In this document: piece by piece, positions 1 through 57,489 of the stretch
Layout: the number at the start of each line of letters is the position of its first letter
Numbering within the stretch: position 1 is the stretch's first letter
NCBI GenBank assembly: GCA_030427835.1
Contig: JAUICN010000005.1
Span: 1 to 64,000, forward strand
Reading direction: 5' to 3'
Source of the DNA: Polyangia bacterium
Lineage (GTDB): Bacteria > Myxococcota_A > Polyangia > Polyangiales > JAUICN01
DNA: 64,000 bases
Program-made: the position numbers and the translations under genes
The notes under the pieces: model-generated
Seen by the model: the letters and a program-made list of their open reading frames with translations, nothing else
Told to the model about the DNA's origin: nothing
The model's database searches: none

Positions 1-127
1 CCACCGCAGGCATTCCACATTGGGCTATCTCAGCCCTGTCGATTTTGAAAACTCTTACTACCAAAACTTAGGACTTGCTGCTTAACTTCAACTGTCCATT
101 TTTTCGGGACCACTCCAAATAGATCCC

Positions 128-2398
128 TCAGGGAAGTGAGCCAACGCACGCCGCAAGAGTTTGGGAAGCAATGCCCGTGCAAGTCACGGTATTTCTTCTC
201 TCTTCCATACAGCTGTCGTACTGACGAAAGTATTGTTGCAAGCACAGTCGGACCTGGATCGGCTCACGTCCTGTGTACGCATCCCTACCACGAACGTTGG
301 AGCTACCCAGCCATTCTTCGTATCGCTGTATCAGCACATCCACGTTCGATTGGGGTGTCGCGGACGATGAACCATCGCCCCGGCTTTGGTCCAGAGAGGT
401 TCCATCTTGGAATCCAGATCGAGCTATCATGGATTCGACGGGGTCCTTTCCTCGCACCATCGACTTGCATAGAAATGTGCTGAGACCTTGTATCTCGTAT
501 TTGCTTTCGCCGAGGTGCATCACGGGTTCCGTGGCCTGGCACACCTCCTTGAAGTCCTCCTCGGTTGCCACGCGGTCGGGATGGTTAAACCAGTTGGATC
601 GGAACGCGGTCGTGCATACATCACGGATGGCTCGAGCCATTGTTCCACACAACTGCCCCTTCCTTCCGTAGTGAGAAAAATACTGCTGAATACTGGCGTT
701 GACACGTTTTGCGCCCTCCATCATCGAACGCACCAAATGAAGTGCCCTTGGGTACTCATTTGGCTTCTTCCGCAACACCATATACTCCTCAATTACACGG
801 GCCATGGTGTAGCGGTGGGCCATTTGCTCGAGAGATTCATGCAAAGAAGCGGACCACTCGGCAACCTCAACCGGTGCCTGCACCCGATATGGAACTTCAG
901 ATTCGTTTTCCGGAAACATGAACACTGGTGGTGATACGACAGTCTCAAGCGCTGTGGCGGTGGCGGTAAGCCCTGGTATATGGAGGAAAGCAGGTCGCTC
1001 TTTACCTTGAAGGGCGGGTAGATTAGCGTTCACTGCATCTCGCCATTGAGTTCCCATCGCGTTAAACGCCATGCTAAGCGACAGGGCTCTACCCTCCTTC
1101 AGAACACCGTGACAGTGGAACGGAGATACAGGCCTATTGTTGTAGTAGCCCACCGTACCACGGTGATTTGCGGCATATCGCACTAGAAACCCTGTGTTTA
1201 GAACACCATTCACTCCAATCTCGATAGGAGTTACGTAGGCCGGGTGATTCCAACGGGCCTGCGTATGATTTTTGTATGTATAGCAGTGGGTGTAGGTGCT
1301 TTCTGCCATGTCGAGGCTAGCGAAATCAACCAAGGGTGGCATTTCTTCCCAGGGGTTGGATACCGCCAAGGCACTTTCACAATAGGCCCGTGCCGCCCGT
1401 TTGATCTCTGTTTCAGGGCCGCGACTCCCCGACGCCTGTTGCGCCCCTCTACTCGTTGCTTTCTTGCGAGTCGGCTGACAAATACCCGCGTAGTCCTTGT
1501 CACTGATCTTCTCGGCGGTGTGAGCTGTTTTACAGGCACGTTCCAGGGTTCGGTAAAGTGGAAAGCAGTACGTCCCTCCGAGGGTGTCGTACCGATGCCT
1601 AAACGGTGTGCTGAGACTTTCGTCAACGGATTGGAGGTATTCGCCCAGCCCTTTGGGGTCCCGACGGCCAGAAACGTTTCGTTTGGCCACGTACCGCTGT
1701 ACCAACTCAACAAAGCCGTGATGTTCTAGGGCGGCGGAACCCGTGGTTTGAATCGCTGAAAGTCGTGCAGAAGCTGCATCGCTCTCTAGCCAAACTGCCA
1801 GAGCGCGATCACCCAGTTTCTGTTTGGGAACCGCGTCTAGCCACTGTACGATTTCATGCTGAAAGGGACGGTAGGAAACACGACGAGCGCTTCCAGTATC
1901 CACCGCGATCCCAAGTATGTTTCTCAACTGGGATTGGAGAGCAACCCCTATCTGAAGCGCCTGTTCTCGCTGGGGAACACCAAGGTTTTCTCCGAGGCAA
2001 GATGATTCTCTCTGAGGCTTTTGTCTAAACAGGCCAACACCGACGGTGCCTCCAACACCATCCTCGCCACCGTGTAGCTCCTCAAAAACACTGAACCAGA
2101 TATTTGGCACGGCTCCATGGCCCCTCCCCTGGACTTGAAATGTCATGTGGAAAAGGGAGGCTTCCAAGTTACCGGCACCGGTGTGCGCCCCCTGCCTGTT
2201 GCTGCAATCAAACGGTTCAACGGTAGCGAAAACCTCCTGCACCTGCGGGAAGGACGGCTCGTACGACCCCTTTATGAAGGGGCCCACGGTGCAAGACCCC
2301 ATAAGACAGGATCCAACACAGCTGGTTACAAGTGCAGTAACAACAAAGGCCGTTTGCCTGGTCTGCGGGGGCCTTCCACAACGCAACTTCAAAAACAT
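128..2398 (-). CDS. Exported six-Cys repeat protein, copy A (lipoprotein-like)
   Basis: Unrecognised 756-aa protein. From the ATG at 2398 the N-terminus reads as a lipoprotein signal: basic start, hydrophobic FVVTALV, then VTSC with Cys27 as the lipidation site. A longer reading from 2497 would bury this signal, so I prefer 2398, although no clear Shine-Dalgarno is visible. The body holds two copies of a roughly 300-residue module. Each has a beta-rich part between two Cys (65/134 and 372/429), a long helical part, then C-x10-C-x17-C (278, 289, 307), which in the second copy is C-x10-C-x24-C (584, 595, 620), and a further Cys followed by x7-[DN]-P (340, 644). A C-terminal helical segment carries Cys719, 730, 740 and 751. 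Copies B and C lie directly upstream on the same strand. Function unknown; an exported, disulfide-bonded protein is inferred. Confidence 0.7.
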   Translation of the reverse strand: MFLKLRCGRPPQTRQTAFVVTALVTSCVGSCLMGSCTVGPFIKGSYEPSFPQVQEVFATVEPFDCSNRQGAHTGAGNLEASLFHMTFQVQGRGHGAVPNIWFSVFEELHGGEDGVGGTVGVGLFRQKPQRESSCLGENLGVPQREQALQIGVALQSQLRNILGIAVDTGSARRVSYRPFQHEIVQWLDAVPKQKLGDRALAVWLESDAASARLSAIQTTGSAALEHHGFVELVQRYVAKRNVSGRRDPKGLGEYLQSVDESLSTPFRHRYDTLGGTYCFPLYRTLERACKTAHTAEKISDKDYAGICQPTRKKATSRGAQQASGSRGPETEIKRAARAYCESALAVSNPWEEMPPLVDFASLDMAESTYTHCYTYKNHTQARWNHPAYVTPIEIGVNGVLNTGFLVRYAANHRGTVGYYNNRPVSPFHCHGVLKEGRALSLSMAFNAMGTQWRDAVNANLPALQGKERPAFLHIPGLTATATALETVVSPPVFMFPENESEVPYRVQAPVEVAEWSASLHESLEQMAHRYTMARVIEEYMVLRKKPNEYPRALHLVRSMMEGAKRVNASIQQYFSHYGRKGQLCGTMARAIRDVCTTAFRSNWFNHPDRVATEEDFKEVCQATEPVMHLGESKYEIQGLSTFLCKSMVRGKDPVESMIARSGFQDGTSLDQSRGDGSSSATPQSNVDVLIQRYEEWLGSSNVRGRDAYTGREPIQVRLCLQQYFRQYDSCMEERRNTVTCTGIASQTLAACVGSLP

Positions 2399-2562
2399 GA
2401 AGTGCCTATGGCAAAAACCGTACCGCCCAACTTTGGGGCAAATATTTCCCAACCACGCCCAGGCTGTACCCACAACTGGCAAAAACGGTTGGGCCAAGAG
2501 GCCCTATCGGGCACCCCGTTTGCCATCTCCATGCCCGGGCTGGCACCCCAGGTTTCACGGAC

Positions 2563-4752
2563 TCATTGCAGGCAGAGGTAGAGAGCCTGGTTGACTCCAT
2601 TCCTGCATATCAAGTGGTTCCGGGCACCTTCACCCATGCATTTGTCGTAACTACGATAGTAGTTCGCAAGGCAACTCATCACTCTAGGGTCAGACTCGCC
2701 CCCAATAAGCTGTGCGCGGTTGATATTGCTTCCGAGGTTCGGTTCATGTCGTGCCATGACGTCTTCAAAACTACTGGTAGGTTCCCGCACCCCATGTTCG
2801 GTATCGATTTGAATTTTCTCAAACGGATTCTCCTTGGCGGCATAGGCATCGCACAGAAAGTGAACTGCCGTTTTCAGCTTCACGTTAGGATCGTTATGCG
2901 CTCCCTCAAGATGTTGCTCGCTGTCCAAAACATCGTCTCCCGGTCCGCATGCTCGATTGAAAGCATCCTCTTCGTACCACCCTTTTCTGTAAGCTGTTTC
3001 ACACACGTTCATCATCCTATCCACGGCTTTCCAGCATACCCCAGACACGTTTAGGTAGAAAAGCACCTGCTCATGAATTTCAAGGCCGCTTTTACTTGCT
3101 GCCTTGGCGAGTGCCCTCACCGAAGACTCTAAAGTGGGCGAATTACTGCTGCCTATTTGCAACTCCATATAGTTTCTGATCGTCTGTGCCCAGACAATCT
3201 TCCTGGCAGATAGTTCAAGGGCCGCACGGAGCGCTTCCTCCCAAGATTTCATGGCATTGTGATCCGCAAACCAACCCTCTCGATCTAGCGCAAAGTTCCC
3301 GACAGCAGAAGGCTCTTCCACGACAACCTTCAGCAAGGGAATGCGCTCAATGAAGTCTAACAACAGTCGACCAACACCTTGCCTCTCCTGGAGGAGAGGT
3401 GCGTGGTTTGGCAACTCTTGCGTGTTTGCCTGTAGAACGTCGAACACCCAAATGGAACGGATCCTGTCTATCCGCGTTTGAGGCGGCGGGTTCAATCCTT
3501 TCTTTGGAATCTCTGCACAGGGGAATAGCCCCTCAGGGCGCTGTTGCTGAACACCGTAGGACGGCCCCGTGACACCGCTGTCAAAACGCAAAAACCAATA
3601 GACGTGGGTTTTCCGCCGTGCTTCAACTGCAACCGGAACGGCCCACACCTTCTTGATTTCCTGCTCTGAACGGCGCGAGTAGGCACACTCCACCCTCAGC
3701 GCGTCTTTGAATTGAATAGTCACTTTTCTGACCAGGGAGCGAGTGCTTTGGAGCGCTGTGATCTTGCCGCAGAAATGATTCGCTCCGTGCATCAACTCCG
3801 ACTTGTCGACAGGGAGTGAGGGGTTGCCACCCGCCACGCATATGTGCTGGTAGTCCCGCTGGCTGAATATTCCCGTGTTCGCGGCAAGGCGGCACACTTC
3901 ATTCACCTGATATGCAAACGATGGACAGGTTCGCTTGTTGATGGACCAAAGAAAACTTTCCAAATACCCAAGTGACAGCTCGTTTGCGGACTGCAACATT
4001 TCCCCTGCACGTTCGATGCTTTGCGCGACATGTGTATTTCGACGCAAATCGGCGTACTTCTGGAGTGCCACCACGGCGGCGTTACGATTTAGGGTCATCT
4101 CTGCTTGAACGCGTATTTCTTCAAGCATGGCTTGCACGTTCGATGAAGCCAACCAGGAATCGGTATTTCCTATTCGCAACAACTCTTCTGTGATGCTGCG
4201 AAACAAAGTCAACACTGCTTTGGAGAACCTTGCACTGAAGAGTGCCCGTGGGTCCGCGTAACCACCGCGAAGCGTGTCTCTCAAACCCTGCGAAAGCCGT
4301 TTGGTTATGGCGGCGTATCGCGCTGCGTGTCCGATGGGGTTGTCCCTGAAAACACCTAGGCAATGAGATTTATCCTCAGGAGGATGATGAAACAGTGCGA
4401 AATTCACAGGTACCGTAGTGTCCGGTACGGTCTGCGGACGGAGGTAAGCACCGAACCATACTTCTACCTTTTTGCCACGACCTAGGGCGAGAGAAAGAGA
4501 GAACCGTAGAGCATCGGTGAATACGTCGATGTTGTTAAGCCCATCCCGAGTGTAACACGTGTACTTCGCCGCCCGCAGTTCAGCGGATTGAACAGTTAAC
4601 AGGGGGGACTTTTGAGTCTGCTTGGCGGAGGGTATCTCTGCACTGCAGGCAGAACCCGCATGCAAACCACTTACCCAAAGAAAGATCGCGGGCAAGAAGC
4701 ACACGAAACGTGCCCATGGGCCGCTTTTTCTTAAAGTTGCCTTGCGTGCCAT
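2563..4752 (-). CDS. Exported six-Cys repeat protein, copy B
   Basis: Unrecognised 729-aa paralogue of the genes on both sides. The ATG at 4752 gives a good Sec signal peptide: basic n-region, hydrophobic FVCFLPAIFLWVSGL, and a likely cleavage after SACSA near residue 38. A start at 4788 would add 12 residues before it. Two six-Cys modules follow: Cys66, 131, 276, 287, 305, 328 and Cys356, 412, 573, 584, 602, 634. In both, the third to fifth Cys are spaced exactly C-x10-C-x17-C. The C-terminal segment has Cys694, 705, 716 and 727, each separated by ten residues. The spacing is regular enough to suggest disulfide-stapled helical hairpins. No catalytic motif or known domain is recognised. G+C is visibly lower than in the housekeeping genes downstream. 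Confidence 0.72.
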   Translation of the reverse strand: MARKATLRKSGPWARFVCFLPAIFLWVSGLHAGSACSAEIPSAKQTQKSPLLTVQSAELRAAKYTCYTRDGLNNIDVFTDALRFSLSLALGRGKKVEVWFGAYLRPQTVPDTTVPVNFALFHHPPEDKSHCLGVFRDNPIGHAARYAAITKRLSQGLRDTLRGGYADPRALFSARFSKAVLTLFRSITEELLRIGNTDSWLASSNVQAMLEEIRVQAEMTLNRNAAVVALQKYADLRRNTHVAQSIERAGEMLQSANELSLGYLESFLWSINKRTCPSFAYQVNEVCRLAANTGIFSQRDYQHICVAGGNPSLPVDKSELMHGANHFCGKITALQSTRSLVRKVTIQFKDALRVECAYSRRSEQEIKKVWAVPVAVEARRKTHVYWFLRFDSGVTGPSYGVQQQRPEGLFPCAEIPKKGLNPPPQTRIDRIRSIWVFDVLQANTQELPNHAPLLQERQGVGRLLLDFIERIPLLKVVVEEPSAVGNFALDREGWFADHNAMKSWEEALRAALELSARKIVWAQTIRNYMELQIGSSNSPTLESSVRALAKAASKSGLEIHEQVLFYLNVSGVCWKAVDRMMNVCETAYRKGWYEEDAFNRACGPGDDVLDSEQHLEGAHNDPNVKLKTAVHFLCDAYAAKENPFEKIQIDTEHGVREPTSSFEDVMARHEPNLGSNINRAQLIGGESDPRVMSCLANYYRSYDKCMGEGARNHLICRNGVNQALYLCLQ

Positions 4753-4952
4753 GGCTTGTCCTACAAGCAAGGAACATGCCATCCGCAAACCCTTGCGACC
4801 TACGGGCGATAGACGTCCTCACCTACACCTTTTTGAACTGCATTGGTGGCTAAATCGGTGACTGGGCCGGTGGCCGGGCTAGCCGCCTAGCCTGTGACGG
4901 TTGCCTCCTTCTGGCATCTGAGGATCCGATGGAATGAAGTAACGTTGCTATG

Positions 4953-6458
4953 CTAGTCGCTAGTGAGGCACTGATCGAGGGCGTGCTTTGCTTTCAAGGC
5001 GCCGTCCCCAAGGTTCTGGGCGCCGTTTTTGACGCATTGGATATATTGACTGAAACTCGTTCGCAGGCAGACTCGGATAGGTTCCGGCTCGGACGACATG
5101 GCAGCCGCGAGGAGTGTGGTTTGCCCCAGGAATGGCTGGTAGTTGGACCAAAGACGCTCCACAGGGCCCTCTGGGTTTTGGTCAAGAGTTACGACTGGAA
5201 CAGGGGCGCCTGGGGGTGCAGGTGGCACAGGCATGTAGGGATGAAATGGTATGTCGAGATCTAGCTGCACGCTCAATCTATCAAAGGGATCCTCTCCAAC
5301 ACGAATGGCGTTGCAGAGGAATAGGGACACGGCCCTGAGTTCGATTGTGCTGCGCCCCAACCCAGGGAGTGCTGTGCGCCTTGGGCGGCATACGTCCAGG
5401 AAATCCTGCGGCGCATACCATAGGTTCCGATTTGCCACATTGCATATCACCACCACTTGACTCGCGAAGTCGCTACATGTTTTTTCTTTGGAAAGGTAAT
5501 GGTACACGTGGTCGTCGAAGGTGCGCCCGGTTTCGACCGCACTGTGCAGCATATTGCGAAGTAGCGACGCCGATTCGATTTCCGTTGTGCGTTCTTTTCT
5601 GTGGTTCATGTGCTGGCCGATCATCATGGCGACGACCTGGAAACGCGCCGCCTTCACCAGGGATGCGCGCATGCTGTTCTCCCACAGCTCCATGGCTTCT
5701 GCATCGTTGAGCCATTCGGATGATTTTTCTAGGTCTCCTGTGGACTTCCACGTCGGACGCACTTGATCGAACAGAGTGACCAACAGCTTTCTGGCCCCGG
5801 TTGCGAACGCGATTCGTTTCGAAGCATATTCCGAACCAGGGAGTATTTGATCTAGGAAAAACTCCATCCATTGCCTGCGGATTCCAGCGGCGACCGAAGT
5901 GGTACAGCCGCTGCTGTTCCAAACGCCTGCGTCGCCCGAACAATAGAAACCCCGCGTAGGCCGCTTGGCGTGGAAGCCGAGTCCCTTACCGGTATCGGGG
6001 AAGTTGTAACGCACAACAAACGAAGTATGAGTGTACCCTGCTGTTGAAATGGATACCGGTACAACGTACGCGGACACAAGTCGACTTAGATTGCGCCCTC
6101 TGCTGTCTGAACCTCCCAAGGGAACCTTGCTTCCGTGCCGGCATTGCTCTTCAAAGGCACTCGAGGCATTCACTCCGACACTGGTGACTATTGGTCCGAA
6201 CTCAGTTTCGTGGACGACCTCGTGGTGAACATCGCTCCCGTTTGCCTTCGCTTCACCTTGGGACGGAACCCAAACCGACACATTCCAAGAAGACCAAAGC
6301 GAGCCACAAAGGCTGGAAAGAGGCCTTCCAACGGAACAGAAATCGTGTGTTTCCGGCAGATATCGGACTAAAGGATCGAAGAGGTGTGAACATGACGTTT
6401 GCTGATTTGGACAGGTGTGACGAACGGGACCACGTTCGTTCAGCAATCGCCATGCCAT
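4953..6458 (-). CDS. Exported six-Cys repeat protein, copy C (single module; N-terminus probably frameshifted)
   Basis: Unrecognised 501-codon frame with one six-Cys module (Cys106, 173, 328, 339, 357, 382; again C-x10-C-x17-C) plus the family C-terminal segment (Cys464, 475, 497). In the terminal segment the spacing matches copies A and B, but the middle Cys is replaced by Gly486. A proline-rich linker lies near residues 403-422. The N-terminal hundred residues do not look like a signal peptide in this frame, whereas a convincing one lies in another frame of the same DNA (6253-6393). The native protein may therefore start at 6393 and change frame near 6255-6270. Family membership is strongly supported; the start and N-terminus are not. 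Confidence 0.62.
   Translation of the reverse strand: MAWRLLNERGPVRHTCPNQQTSCSHLFDPLVRYLPETHDFCSVGRPLSSLCGSLWSSWNVSVWVPSQGEAKANGSDVHHEVVHETEFGPIVTSVGVNASSAFEEQCRHGSKVPLGGSDSRGRNLSRLVSAYVVPVSISTAGYTHTSFVVRYNFPDTGKGLGFHAKRPTRGFYCSGDAGVWNSSGCTTSVAAGIRRQWMEFFLDQILPGSEYASKRIAFATGARKLLVTLFDQVRPTWKSTGDLEKSSEWLNDAEAMELWENSMRASLVKAARFQVVAMMIGQHMNHRKERTTEIESASLLRNMLHSAVETGRTFDDHVYHYLSKEKTCSDFASQVVVICNVANRNLWYAPQDFLDVCRPRRTALPGLGRSTIELRAVSLFLCNAIRVGEDPFDRLSVQLDLDIPFHPYMPVPPAPPGAPVPVVTLDQNPEGPVERLWSNYQPFLGQTTLLAAAMSSEPEPIRVCLRTSFSQYIQCVKNGAQNLGDGALKAKHALDQCLTSD
6253..6393 (-). other. Out-of-frame signal-peptide-like segment of copy C
   Basis: Read from the ATG at 6393, this frame encodes a basic start, Arg/Lys residues and the hydrophobic core PLWLALVFLECVGLG, then stops at 6253. 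It overlaps the copy C frame, which lacks a signal of its own. Copies A and B both start with comparable export signals. The simplest reading is that it is the true N-terminus of copy C, separated from the body by a one- or two-base frameshift that is either biological or a sequencing error. Confidence 0.4.
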
Positions 6459-6641
6459 TCACGGATTCGAGACATTGTCGCGAATCTGCCACTCAAAAAC
6501 CCATAGGACTGACTACCACCGTGTGGGAAATGGCTAGTTCGTTGGTCAGCTCAACGGACCACCAAAAACTGGCCACTCAGGCGGGTTTTTGGTTCAGACA
6601 AACGCACGTCGGCTAGCCTCGCTGGTGGACCCGCCGCGGTG

Positions 6642-7409
6642 TTAGTCGCCGTCGCCGTTTTCGGCTTCTAGTTTTTTTCGGAGGTCTTCGTCACGGTCCC
6701 AGCGGTCCACGTTGTTGTCGCCGTCGATGTCGGTGCCCACGCGGACCATGCGGCCGTTTTGGTAGTACTCCCACTGGTCTGGTTTCCATTCCTCGGGGGT
6801 GCTACGGGCGGCGAGATCCCGCTCGCCACGTACGGGGCGGCCGTTCTCGTAGAAGACCTTGGCGTCCACGCGGCCGTTTCCTGAGGTGTCCTGTTCGATG
6901 CGCACCACACGGCCATTGTGGAAGTGCACCATTTCGTCCATGCGCCCATCGAAGTCCCGATCGGATTCCTCACGCAGGGGGCGGCCCTCTTCGGTGTAGT
7001 AGCGCACCACGTCCTTGACGCCATCGCCGTTGAGGTCGGTTTCTCGGCAGATCAGGACGAGCCGAATGGTGCCGCCGCTGCCCACCCGCCGAAACACCTT
7101 GCGAATGTCTGGGATCTCGTCGCCGGAGGTGTCGTATTCGCTGATCTCAACCCCTTCGGCGTTGGAGTTGCACAGCTGCCCGGCCTCCCCTCCCGACGTT
7201 GCACCCGCGAGCCCTTCAGAGGTGCGCAGGGTGGGTTGGGTTTCCTCTTGCACGGCGGCACCCCCACAGGCGGTCGCCACCCACAGCAAGAGCCCGAGCG
7301 AGATGACTCCAGTGCGGCTCCAACGGGTGTGTGTTGGGTTGATGTGGTGGGCGGTGCAACGGCGCGGGGGGCAACGGTGTGGGGGGCCAGGCTGGATCGG
7401 TGCGCTCAT
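6642..7409 (-). CDS. Asp-rich repeat lipoprotein
   Basis: 255-aa predicted lipoprotein. A long basic n-region precedes a hydrophobic stretch and the lipobox ATAC near residue 48. The mature part has about four or five repeats of roughly 27 residues, each with an Asp-rich loop such as DLNGDGVKD or DFDGRMDE followed by a short beta-like phrase with an aromatic, Gly and Arg. The loops resemble calcium-binding DxDxDG motifs, but real metal binding is an inference. The start overlaps the stop of the upstream paralogue by four bases (ATGA at 7406-7409) and is preceded by GAGGAG, so the two genes are translationally coupled. No specific function is known to me. Confidence 0.75.
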   Translation of the reverse strand: MSAPIQPGPPHRCPPRRCTAHHINPTHTRWSRTGVISLGLLLWVATACGGAAVQEETQPTLRTSEGLAGATSGGEAGQLCNSNAEGVEISEYDTSGDEIPDIRKVFRRVGSGGTIRLVLICRETDLNGDGVKDVVRYYTEEGRPLREESDRDFDGRMDEMVHFHNGRVVRIEQDTSGNGRVDAKVFYENGRPVRGERDLAARSTPEEWKPDQWEYYQNGRMVRVGTDIDGDNNVDRWDRDEDLRKKLEAENGDGD

Positions 7410-8335
7410 GGGGACTCCTCGGATTCTGGGGCGGCTGTTTCAGGCGTGCTTTCACCACCTTGCTCATCACTTCCGGTGGCTTCTTCGGAGTTTTCACCCG
7501 CCGCGTCCGCCGCAATGTCACTGGCCGCCTTCTCCGCGTCGCTGGTCTCTGTTGAATCTTCTGTGGATTGCCCTTCGGTGGGTTGCGGTTCTGTGGATCG
7601 CCCTGCCGATTCTTCTTTGGCGCCCACGATGGCGTTGCTACCGCAGGTTCGTTGTTCTTCCACGGGGCCTGCATCTTCGGTGTCGATGACTTCACGATCG
7701 TCGGGTTCACCGTTCTCATCTGAATCCGCCACGATTTCCGTGAGGCGCCCGTTGACGTATTTTTCCCACTTTTCGGGGCGGTTGTTGTTGTTGTTGTCGT
7801 AGCCGATTTCGGTGACGATTCCGTTTTCGTAGGTTTCCCAGGTGTCCGCCTTGCCGTTGCGCTTGCGGTCCCGTTCGGCCCGGGACACGAGGCCGCCTTC
7901 ACACCAGACCCAGGTATCAATGGCGTTGTCGAAGTTGGTGTCCAACTCCTTTCGCACCAATCGGTTGTTTTCAAAGTAGGAGACCTGATCGATTTTTCCG
8001 TCGAAATCGAAGTCGTGCTCTTCCTGGGAAAGGGATACCCCGTCCTCTTCGTAGATACGCAGAACATCCACGGCACCGTCCATGTTCATGTCGAACTGGG
8101 AGCACCGTAGGGTCTCACCGTTGAAAACATGACGGATGTCGGGAAAGCCATCTTTGTTCACATCCACCTCCCGGGTGGTGTTGCCGTCGGACTGACATAA
8201 CTTGTGGGTGGTGGGGTCGCGGTGGGATCCGCGAATGGCGGTAGAGGGGGTGTCAGGAGCCTTTTTGCATGCGGGGGCCCACACTAGGCCCCAAGCCACA
8301 AGGAGACATGACGAGATTTTTGTAAATGATTTCAT
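7406..8335 (-). CDS. Asp-rich repeat lipoprotein, paralogue with acidic tail
   Basis: 309-aa predicted lipoprotein. The ATG at 8335 opens a basic, hydrophobic signal ending in the lipobox APAC. A longer frame back to 8569 adds nonsense sequence before this signal and is rejected. The mature part begins much like the downstream protein (an LCxS motif, then DxNxDGxPDIRxVF) and carries about six Asp-rich repeats, for example DMNMDGAVD and DFDFDGKID. It ends in a Ser/Glu/Thr-rich acidic tail of about 80 residues, probably disordered. It is paralogous to and coupled with the 6642-7409 gene. A surface or periplasmic lipoprotein is inferred; the role is unknown. Confidence 0.75.
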   Translation of the reverse strand: MKSFTKISSCLLVAWGLVWAPACKKAPDTPSTAIRGSHRDPTTHKLCQSDGNTTREVDVNKDGFPDIRHVFNGETLRCSQFDMNMDGAVDVLRIYEEDGVSLSQEEHDFDFDGKIDQVSYFENNRLVRKELDTNFDNAIDTWVWCEGGLVSRAERDRKRNGKADTWETYENGIVTEIGYDNNNNNRPEKWEKYVNGRLTEIVADSDENGEPDDREVIDTEDAGPVEEQRTCGSNAIVGAKEESAGRSTEPQPTEGQSTEDSTETSDAEKAASDIAADAAGENSEEATGSDEQGGESTPETAAPESEESP

Positions 8336-8546
8336 GTTTTTACCAGCGTGAGGCCAGGGGCCCTGAAACGTGGGCTGATCATAGCCGCCGGCGTGCTTGC
8401 ACTGCAAGGGAGGTGTGCGTTTGTGGGCGATACATTCGATGCATCCCTGGCCCAAATTGACAATACGTGTGGTGCCATATAGGTTCAGTCCCACGGGCAA
8501 CCCGGTCGGTTGCCGTCCCCTGTTCCCGCACCCCTGGAGTGGCCCC

Positions 8547-8729
8547 ATGGCCCGCAAAAAGATATCCACGACGATTTACATCACGCCTGAGCAAAACGAC
8601 CAGTTGAAGCAGCTGCACGAACGCACGAAGGTGCCCGTTGCCGTGTACATTCGCGAGGGGATCGATTTGGTGTTGCGAAAGCACGACGCGAAACTCCCGG
8701 GCCAACTTTCGTTGACCGAACGGGATTGA
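8547..8729 (+). CDS. Ribbon-helix-helix DNA-binding protein
   Basis: 60-aa protein starting MARKKISTTIYITPEQ, a beta strand followed by two helices, with VAVYIREGIDLVL as the second helix. This is the layout of CopG/Arc-type ribbon-helix-helix regulators, which act as dimers. The ATG at 8547 follows GGAG at a good distance; the longer frame from 8397 is rejected. It lies 40 bases before lepA on the same strand. No toxin gene sits beside it, so an antitoxin role is not indicated. A small transcriptional regulator is the best call; its target is unknown. Confidence 0.75.
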   Translation: MARKKISTTIYITPEQNDQLKQLHERTKVPVAVYIREGIDLVLRKHDAKLPGQLSLTERD

Positions 8730-56160: not shown

Positions 56161-57489
56161 GTGCCTGGGCTGCAACTGGATTCAAAATTCCCCATACTCC
56201 GTGTCGTGGAATACTTGCTTGCAACCGCCCCCTGGGCCCCGGATGGTATGGCCCTTGCGCTTGGGCAGGCCGTTCAGGGGGGAAACTACGGAACGGCGCT
56301 GATGTGGATGTTTCTGGCCGGCGTGGCCACGTCCCTCACCCCCTGTGTGTACCCCATGATCGCCATCACGGTGAGTGTCTTCGGAGCAAGGAAGGTGGAT
56401 TCACGGCTGCAGGCTGCGGGCCTGTCCACAGCCTTTGTGGCGGGCATGGTCACCCTTTTCGTTCCCCTGGGGCTCATGGCTGCCCTTACCGGTGGGGTAT
56501 TTGGCGAAGCCCTGGCGCACCCCGCCGTGGCCGGCTTTGTGGCGTTGGTGTTTTTGGCTCTGGCACTAAGCATGTTGGGACTTTTTGAGATCCAACTACC
56601 CGCCCGTTTTCGCAACCGCGTGGCCACCGTGGGTGGATCAGGATTCCGGGGTGCGTTTGGCCTGGGGCTCGTGAGTGCTCTGGTGAGTGCGCCGTGCACT
56701 GGGCCGGTGCTGGCTTTTATTCTGACGTGGATCGGTCAACAGGGGGCCGTGACGTTTGGGGGGCTTGCGTTGCTCTCCTACGGCCTTGGCCTGGGCCTTC
56801 TGTTTTGGTGGGTGGGTACCTTTGCGGTGGCCCTACCGAAATCCGGAGCATGGATGGAGTGGGTCAAAAGCGCATTCGCTGTGGTGATTCTGGTGATGGC
56901 CGTGCACTATGTTCAGGACTTTTTTCCCCTACCCATACCTTTGGTGCGGCAAGGCCTTTGGTTGGGTGCAGGGATCGCCATCGTGACCCTGGGTGCCCTG
57001 CTTGGGGGCGTACACCTGTCGTTTCATCACTCCCGCTGGCAGGTGCGTGCGCGCAAGGCTGGGGGGGTGGCGCTGATGGTGCTGGGGGCGACTTGCGTGT
57101 GGTGGTATGTGGAGGGGCTGCCTCCTGGCGCAAAAATCCAGTGGCAGGAGGACTATGGGAACGTGCGGGCACAGGCCATGGAACGGCAGCAGCCGGTGTT
57201 GGTGGATTTTGGTGCAAGCTGGTGCGAGGCCTGCGGAGAACTGGACCGGGACACATTTAGCGATCCCCGTGTGGTGCGTCGCGTGAAAGAGCTCGGCCTA
57301 GCCGCAGTGAAGGTGGACCTTAGCGCCGGAAAAAATACACCCCAGAAAAAGGCATGGCTTGCACAATACTCCCAGAGGGGATTGCCTTTTGTGGTGTTGC
57401 ACCGGCGGGATGGAACCGAGGCGGCGCGGCTTTCCCAGTTTGTGGACGCGGCTGAGTTTGTACATTGGTTGGAGAACACCCCCCTATGA
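56161..57489 (+). CDS. DsbD-type thiol:disulfide interchange protein (membrane domain plus thioredoxin domain)
   Basis: 442 aa. The membrane domain has about eight helices with the redox Cys pair in TPCVYP and SAPCTGP, and the C-terminal thioredoxin-like domain has WCEACGELDRDTF. It should pass electrons from cytoplasmic thioredoxin to the periplasm, for example for cytochrome c maturation, and several c-type cytochromes are in the window. The N-terminal periplasmic DsbD-alpha domain is absent. GTG at 56161 or 56206 are possible starts; neither has a clear ribosome-binding site. Confidence 0.88.
   Translation: MPGLQLDSKFPILRVVEYLLATAPWAPDGMALALGQAVQGGNYGTALMWMFLAGVATSLTPCVYPMIAITVSVFGARKVDSRLQAAGLSTAFVAGMVTLFVPLGLMAALTGGVFGEALAHPAVAGFVALVFLALALSMLGLFEIQLPARFRNRVATVGGSGFRGAFGLGLVSALVSAPCTGPVLAFILTWIGQQGAVTFGGLALLSYGLGLGLLFWWVGTFAVALPKSGAWMEWVKSAFAVVILVMAVHYVQDFFPLPIPLVRQGLWLGAGIAIVTLGALLGGVHLSFHHSRWQVRARKAGGVALMVLGATCVWWYVEGLPPGAKIQWQEDYGNVRAQAMERQQPVLVDFGASWCEACGELDRDTFSDPRVVRRVKELGLAAVKVDLSAGKNTPQKKAWLAQYSQRGLPFVVLHRRDGTEAARLSQFVDAAEFVHWLENTPL

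Follow-up and report, generated by a model that had tools for sequence, protein, structure and literature searches.

Three adjacent genes at the start of a 64,000-nucleotide stretch of a Polyangia bacterium genome belong to a family of putative disulfide-rich lipoproteins that comprises about 15 genes in seven loci of that genome, as found by profile search, and is an orphan within the collections searched. The stretch (the window) lies at one terminus of contig C30 (JAUICN010000005.1, positions 1 to 64,000) in assembly GCA_030427835.1 (3.32 Mb, 98% complete). By its LepA the organism belongs to Myxococcota, close to Sandaracinaceae/Polyangiaceae (best matches at about 75%). The proteins are usually built of a lipobox, module 1, module 2 and a C-terminal tail, most members having two modules. 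The predicted module is provisionally regarded as a new fold, judged against PDB and BFVD. The reading that we favour, with an even chance of being right, is that these outer-membrane-anchored, oxidatively folded lipoproteins form a rapidly diverging recognition (binding) repertoire. A first-pass annotation of the window had pointed to the genes and their cysteine pattern; its interpretation is supported but incomplete, as it missed the lipoprotein nature of the products, the genome-wide family and the C-terminal helical-hairpin tail.

Single-protein search identified paralogues elsewhere on C30 as well as on contigs C3, C7 and C27, and the profile added C17 and C18. Besides the three genes of the window, C30 carries a tandem pair at 237.7-242.4 kb, C7 has five genes at 46.5-55.9 kb, C18 has two at 236.6-240.9 kb, and C27, C3 and C17 have one each. 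Full-length members are 15-25% identical (32% for the closest pair) and 12 copies are intact open reading frames (ORFs) of 470-829 codons. Tandem copies outside the window overlap or sit 50-207 bp apart, and the gaps in the window array are 164 bp (gene 3/gene 2) and 65 bp (gene 2/gene 1). Three of the about 15 copies look decayed, which is consistent with birth-and-death evolution. They are gene 3 of the window (see below) and the following two:

L034:7047-7589 and 7456-8397, family gene split by a frameshift, with lipobox and beta part in one frame and helices and tail in the next
L013:10217-11299, truncated family gene within the five-gene array, without signal, first beta part and second helical part

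The first-pass annotation did not recognise the family, and no significant family match was found in Pfam, NCBIfam, PHROGs, PADLOC or PDB sequences; no known family with the same cysteine pattern came out of the profile searches. No relative outside the source genome was detected with the family profile over 194 genomes of the order and its relatives and over 379 and 284 genomes of the phylum, nor with the module profile over 116 relatives, the larger genome searches scoring 2-20 candidates per genome, so that distant relatives may have escaped. Single-protein searches of GTDB contigs, IMG/VR, plasmids and phages gave no relative either. Three weak outside matches were rejected as relatives: one (L038) lies opposite a gene that we take by eye to be an SNF2 helicase gene, one (L110) in another frame of a presumed FolC gene and one (L111) opposite a gene recognised by eye as acyl-CoA dehydrogenase-like. 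The collection searched contains no other genome of the same family-level group, so that close relatives may simply be unsequenced. The window had also been suggested to hold an undescribed system. The undescribed family stands, and a system is at most a possibility: no partner gene accompanies the copies, no neighbour gene is conserved beside those examined, and their flanks are unrelated genes.

The six-cysteine modules, their genes and their anchor

The proposal that three adjacent genes encode five copies of one six-cysteine module was confirmed. The ORFs and their parts are as follows (all on the minus strand):

128..2497 (-), family gene 1, 789 aa, TTG start; lipobox at C64 or C69, two modules and tail (ORF list and profile match)
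1352..2251 (-), gene 1 module 1, aa 83-382
428..1342 (-), gene 1 module 2, aa 386-690, x24 variant
131..343 (-), gene 1 tail, C752-x10-C-x9-C-x10-C784
2563..4788 (-), family gene 2, 741 aa, TTG start; weaker signal ending in GSA before C48, two modules and tail (AlphaFold2 model)
3745..4602 (-), gene 2 module 1, aa 63-348; predicted 4-strand beta part with the cysteine pair C78/C143, then helices with C288, C299, C317 and C340 (AlphaFold2)
2812..3744 (-), gene 2 module 2, aa 349-659
2566..2772 (-), gene 2 tail, C706-x10-C717-x10-C728-x10-C739; two predicted helices, 701-719 and 725-740
4953..6458 (-), family gene 3, 501 aa, ATG start; single m2-type module, tail minus one cysteine, no in-frame signal
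5274..6200 (-), gene 3 module, m2 type, aa 87-395
4956..5159 (-), gene 3 tail, third cysteine absent
6253..6492 (-), out-of-frame ORF, displaced signal of gene 3; hydrophobic signal-like stretch FQPLWLALVFLEC (read directly)

The cysteine spacing given by the first-pass annotation, C-x10-C-x17-C in four of five modules and C-x10-C-x24-C in the fifth, agrees to the exact residue: C311-x10-C322-x17-C340 and C617-x10-C628-x24-C653 in the 789-aa protein, C288/299/317 and C585/596/614 in the 741-aa protein, and C328/339/357 in the 501-aa protein. The members of the preceding cysteine pair, described as about 55-70 residues apart, are separated by 55-68 residues, and the following cysteine (residues 373, 677, 340, 646 and 382) carries x7-[DN]-P in four modules out of five, as had been noted. 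A two-module protein has 16 structural cysteines, counting modules and tail. The resemblance is not due to chance, the paralogues matching each other at E 1e-24 to 1e-8 in single-sequence search; gene 1 matches the family profile at E 1.8e-250 (note that its protein is itself a profile member). Gene 3 is probably decayed, or frameshifted in the assembly, because its N-terminus has no signal, a signal-like stretch lies in a different frame (the displaced signal already suspected for it) and one tail cysteine is lost. G+C content is 0.53-0.55 across the family region versus about 0.60 in the rest of the window, and third-position GC is 0.52-0.67 in the family versus 0.69-0.74 in the housekeeping genes of the window.

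The export signals seen earlier are present, but they are lipoprotein signals and not those of plainly exported proteins. A regular-expression scan detected a lipobox-like site after a hydrophobic stretch (LSGC, VASC, IASC, LFSC, LGSC and similar) in 12 of the 13 proteins with an in-frame, untruncated N-terminus, the N-terminal fragment of the split gene being counted. The gene 2 site is weaker than the others; in the thirteenth protein (L013:6490), absent from the scan output, nothing beyond a hydrophobic LQLSC is seen. Because the signals end at such sites, the assignment of the family members as lipoproteins is well supported from sequence. The residue at position +2 after the cysteine predicted to be lipidated is T, S, A, L or F, never Asp; the +2 Asp (Lol) rule is an E. 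coli rule whose transfer to Myxococcota is assumed. The lipoproteins are probably located in the outer membrane and may be exposed at the surface.

Comparison by hhalign shows module 1 to be homologous to module 2 (99.7%, E 2.8e-27). One branch of the module tree separates all first modules from all second modules (support 82/73, 80% of bootstraps). This split by module type indicates that one internal duplication most likely preceded amplification, single-module genes having kept module 2.

At the contig end, 42 bp from gene 1, window positions 1-85 (+) hold what we take by eye to be the C-terminus of a transposase of the IS3 type (HRRHSTLGYLSPVDFENSYYQNLGLAA, followed by a stop codon). The family array may continue past it. 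On the other side of the array, positions 6642-8569 (-) hold two more genes in tandem, lipoprotein-like and with repeats of the DxDxDG and YENGRxVR types; they show a weak EF-hand match and are unrelated to the family. Lipobox proteins of several other, unrelated kinds are likewise encoded in tandem at L036:195-9021 and L034:690-6724, and one of them (L034:5309-6724) contains a metalloprotease HExxH region. Lipoprotein genes seem to be unusually numerous in the genome.

Predicted fold, cysteine pairing and tail

AlphaFold2 modelled gene 2 module 1, run with 23 modules, with a pLDDT of 92.2 and a pTM of 0.89. The predicted module has four beta strands followed by a helical bundle; a single helix of the bundle carries both C1 and C2, and C3 and C4 sit on the two helices that come after it. 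The model of full-length gene 2 is less confident (pLDDT 77, pTM 0.48) and does not fix the domain arrangement. Foldseek gave no match for the full-length and module models in PDB nor for the module in BFVD, the best E values being 0.03-0.09 and query-normalised TM-scores at most about 0.2 among the matches listed. Since the model is confident and has no structural neighbour in PDB, the module may well represent a new fold. The first-pass annotation had named structure models as a check on both fold and cysteine pairing; the comparison bears on the fold, while the pairing was judged from joint loss.

Across the 26 modules in the alignment, loss of C1 always comes with loss of C4 (four of four cases) and loss of C2 with loss of C3 (five of five), and none of the four is ever lost singly (Fisher p = 7e-5 and 1.5e-5, respectively; p = 1 for every other pairing). 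Mapped on the module tree, the losses amount to two independent events for C1-C4 and three for C2-C3, and this holds when the cysteine columns are masked. Because those cysteines disappear strictly as pairs, the alignment supports well a C1-C4 and C2-C3 pairing. The pair of the beta part, Ca-Cb, is nearly invariant. Lipoboxes and joint loss together back the earlier prediction of disulfide-bonded extracytoplasmic proteins. DsbA domains are encoded in the genome and DsbD in the window (56161-57489); DsbA and DsbD could supply the thiol-disulfide machinery. A 663-residue ORF at L105:163-2151 (-) (C23:25113-26879) has three consecutive DsbA domains, which is unusual for a thiol oxidase/isomerase.

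The tail, of about 70 residues, ends every complete protein and is its most conserved part (mean identity 29% versus 16-23%). It typically reads C-x10-C-x9/10-C-x10-C, with Y714 and N724 in gene 2 numbering. Both C18 copies lack tail C1 as well as tail C4 (2/2), possibly through one event. That the tail is a degenerate copy of the four-cysteine helices of the module was rejected (hhalign 2.3% and 0.1%). A similar hairpin ends a second lipoprotein family, encoded by two tandem genes at C7:35-39 kb (L036:5144, 7153): the likeness reaches E 0.002 and 0.008 in profile search within the genome, and hhalign 89%, E 2.2e-6. This second family lacks the module (hhalign 0.1-0.4%) and is also an orphan. 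It is conceivable, but a long shot, that the CHCH-like tail is a portable C-terminal sorting/docking signal on unrelated lipoproteins, read by a dedicated machine of the lineage that places diversified new-fold receptors at the cell surface.

Possible roles of the family

In the binding repertoire that we favour, each protein would be exported by Sec, lipidated at its lipobox cysteine and oxidised in the periplasm via the Dsb pathway, with bonds Ca-Cb, C1-C4 and C2-C3 in each module and two bonds, C1-C4 and C2-C3, in the tail. Anchored at the envelope, it would consist of one or two rigid modules (four-stranded beta part plus helical bundle) followed by the CHCH-like helical hairpin. An ancestral two-module protein that arose by internal duplication would have been amplified into tandem and dispersed copies, which retain disulfides, glycines, prolines and tail while the rest diverges to about 20% identity and module 1 or whole genes are lost. 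The copies would bind changeable extracellular partners (prey, host, kin or phage), the conserved tail being their common part; we infer both the binding role and the type of partner. Conserved residues are cysteines, glycines, prolines and aromatics, and just one Glu and one Arg besides, both in module 2, which argues against a catalytic set. A birth-and-death repertoire is proposed because there are no conserved catalytic residues, divergence within a fixed disulfide frame is extreme, copies are both tandem and dispersed, modules are lost and genes are broken. That so small a genome has 15 members points to an interaction surface that evolves fast.

Several points weigh against this proposal. 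The loss events behind the cysteine pairing are just five in number, so that a sign test is unable to reach 0.05. VKOR was not found in the genome, and no search was made for DsbB as oxidant of DsbA. Divergence between the paralogues precludes dN/dS analysis, and relaxed constraint on structural lipoproteins would give a similar picture.

The main rival, which we hold to be unlikely, is that the proteins would be structural or matrix/spore-coat-like lipoproteins, many rigid rods in the envelope or an extracellular layer, whose sequence drifts while the disulfide frame holds. The purely structural nature of the conserved residues fits, as does the number of paralogues, and the conserved tail could serve polymerisation or docking. 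Structural arrays, however, usually stay similar through selection for co-assembly, whereas here even neighbours are about 20% identical (32% in the closest full-length pair) and the copies are spread over seven loci with differing neighbours.

It is distinctly unlikely that the family acts on soluble ligands within the periplasm, for instance as protease inhibitors or in solute binding, roles for which surface exposure is not needed. Serial compact disulfide-rich modules resemble multi-domain inhibitors in general build and lipid anchoring would suit the periplasmic leaflet, but neither a reactive loop nor ligand residues are conserved across the paralogues, and no transporter genes adjoin the copies whose neighbours were examined.

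That much of the family consists of non-functional, duplicated and decaying genes is very improbable: the three broken or truncated copies and the low third-position GC would agree with it, but the 12 remaining ORFs are intact, and cysteines kept or lost pairwise at 20% identity require selection on a folded protein.

Comparison with known systems

SitA proteins are myxobacterial lipoprotein toxins with polymorphic C-terminal domains (PMC5562445), encoded next to a sitI immunity gene and often overlapping sitB (PMC5562445, PMC8546572). The Polyangia family shares with them lipoprotein signals, polymorphic tandem paralogues and a Myxococcota host, but that it consists of contact-dependent toxins or kin-discrimination lipoproteins of this kind is the least probable of the alternatives, its C-terminus being the most conserved part and not a swapped toxin domain, its overlaps or 50-207 bp gaps leaving no room for a sitI-like immunity gene, no sitB partner being seen, and no toxin or immunity family being matched.

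The tail is best compared with mitochondrial CHCH (twin CX9C) proteins such as COX17, COA6, Cox6B1 and TRIAP1, in which COA6 has the spacing CX9C-X10-CX10C and COX17 and CHCHD1 have C1-C4/C2-C3 bonds (PMC12114033). The family tail likewise has two predicted helices and four cysteines, spaced CX10C-X9/10-CX10C in most members; its outer C1-C4 bond is suggested by joint loss, and an inner C2-C3 bond is expected by analogy. It differs in being the C-terminus of a bacterial lipoprotein with CX10C in both helices, and the mitochondrial proteins are oxidised by Mia40/CHCHD4 in the intermembrane space whereas the bacterial genome has DsbA. Homology to CHCH/CX9C families was not found, Pfam PF16860 giving E 0.92 in one of 15 members alone and PDB sequences no match. 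The tail may staple the fold in the manner of a CHCH hairpin without being a CHCH member: a bacterial, apparently convergent counterpart.

Borrelia PFam54 proteins are arranged in tandem, share a common fold at low identity and bind complement. PFam54 and PFam143 are paralogous surface lipoprotein families (PMC8877311), and the likeness to the present family lies in such families in a small genome. The organism is another one, no sequence or fold match was found, and the Polyangia family is disulfide-rich, with a binding role that is proposed here. The family is new; its kind, lineage-specific expanded lipoproteins, is already known, which limits surprise. What most deserves the attention of specialists is the module, with a fold apparently without match, and the CHCH-like tail, which is portable.

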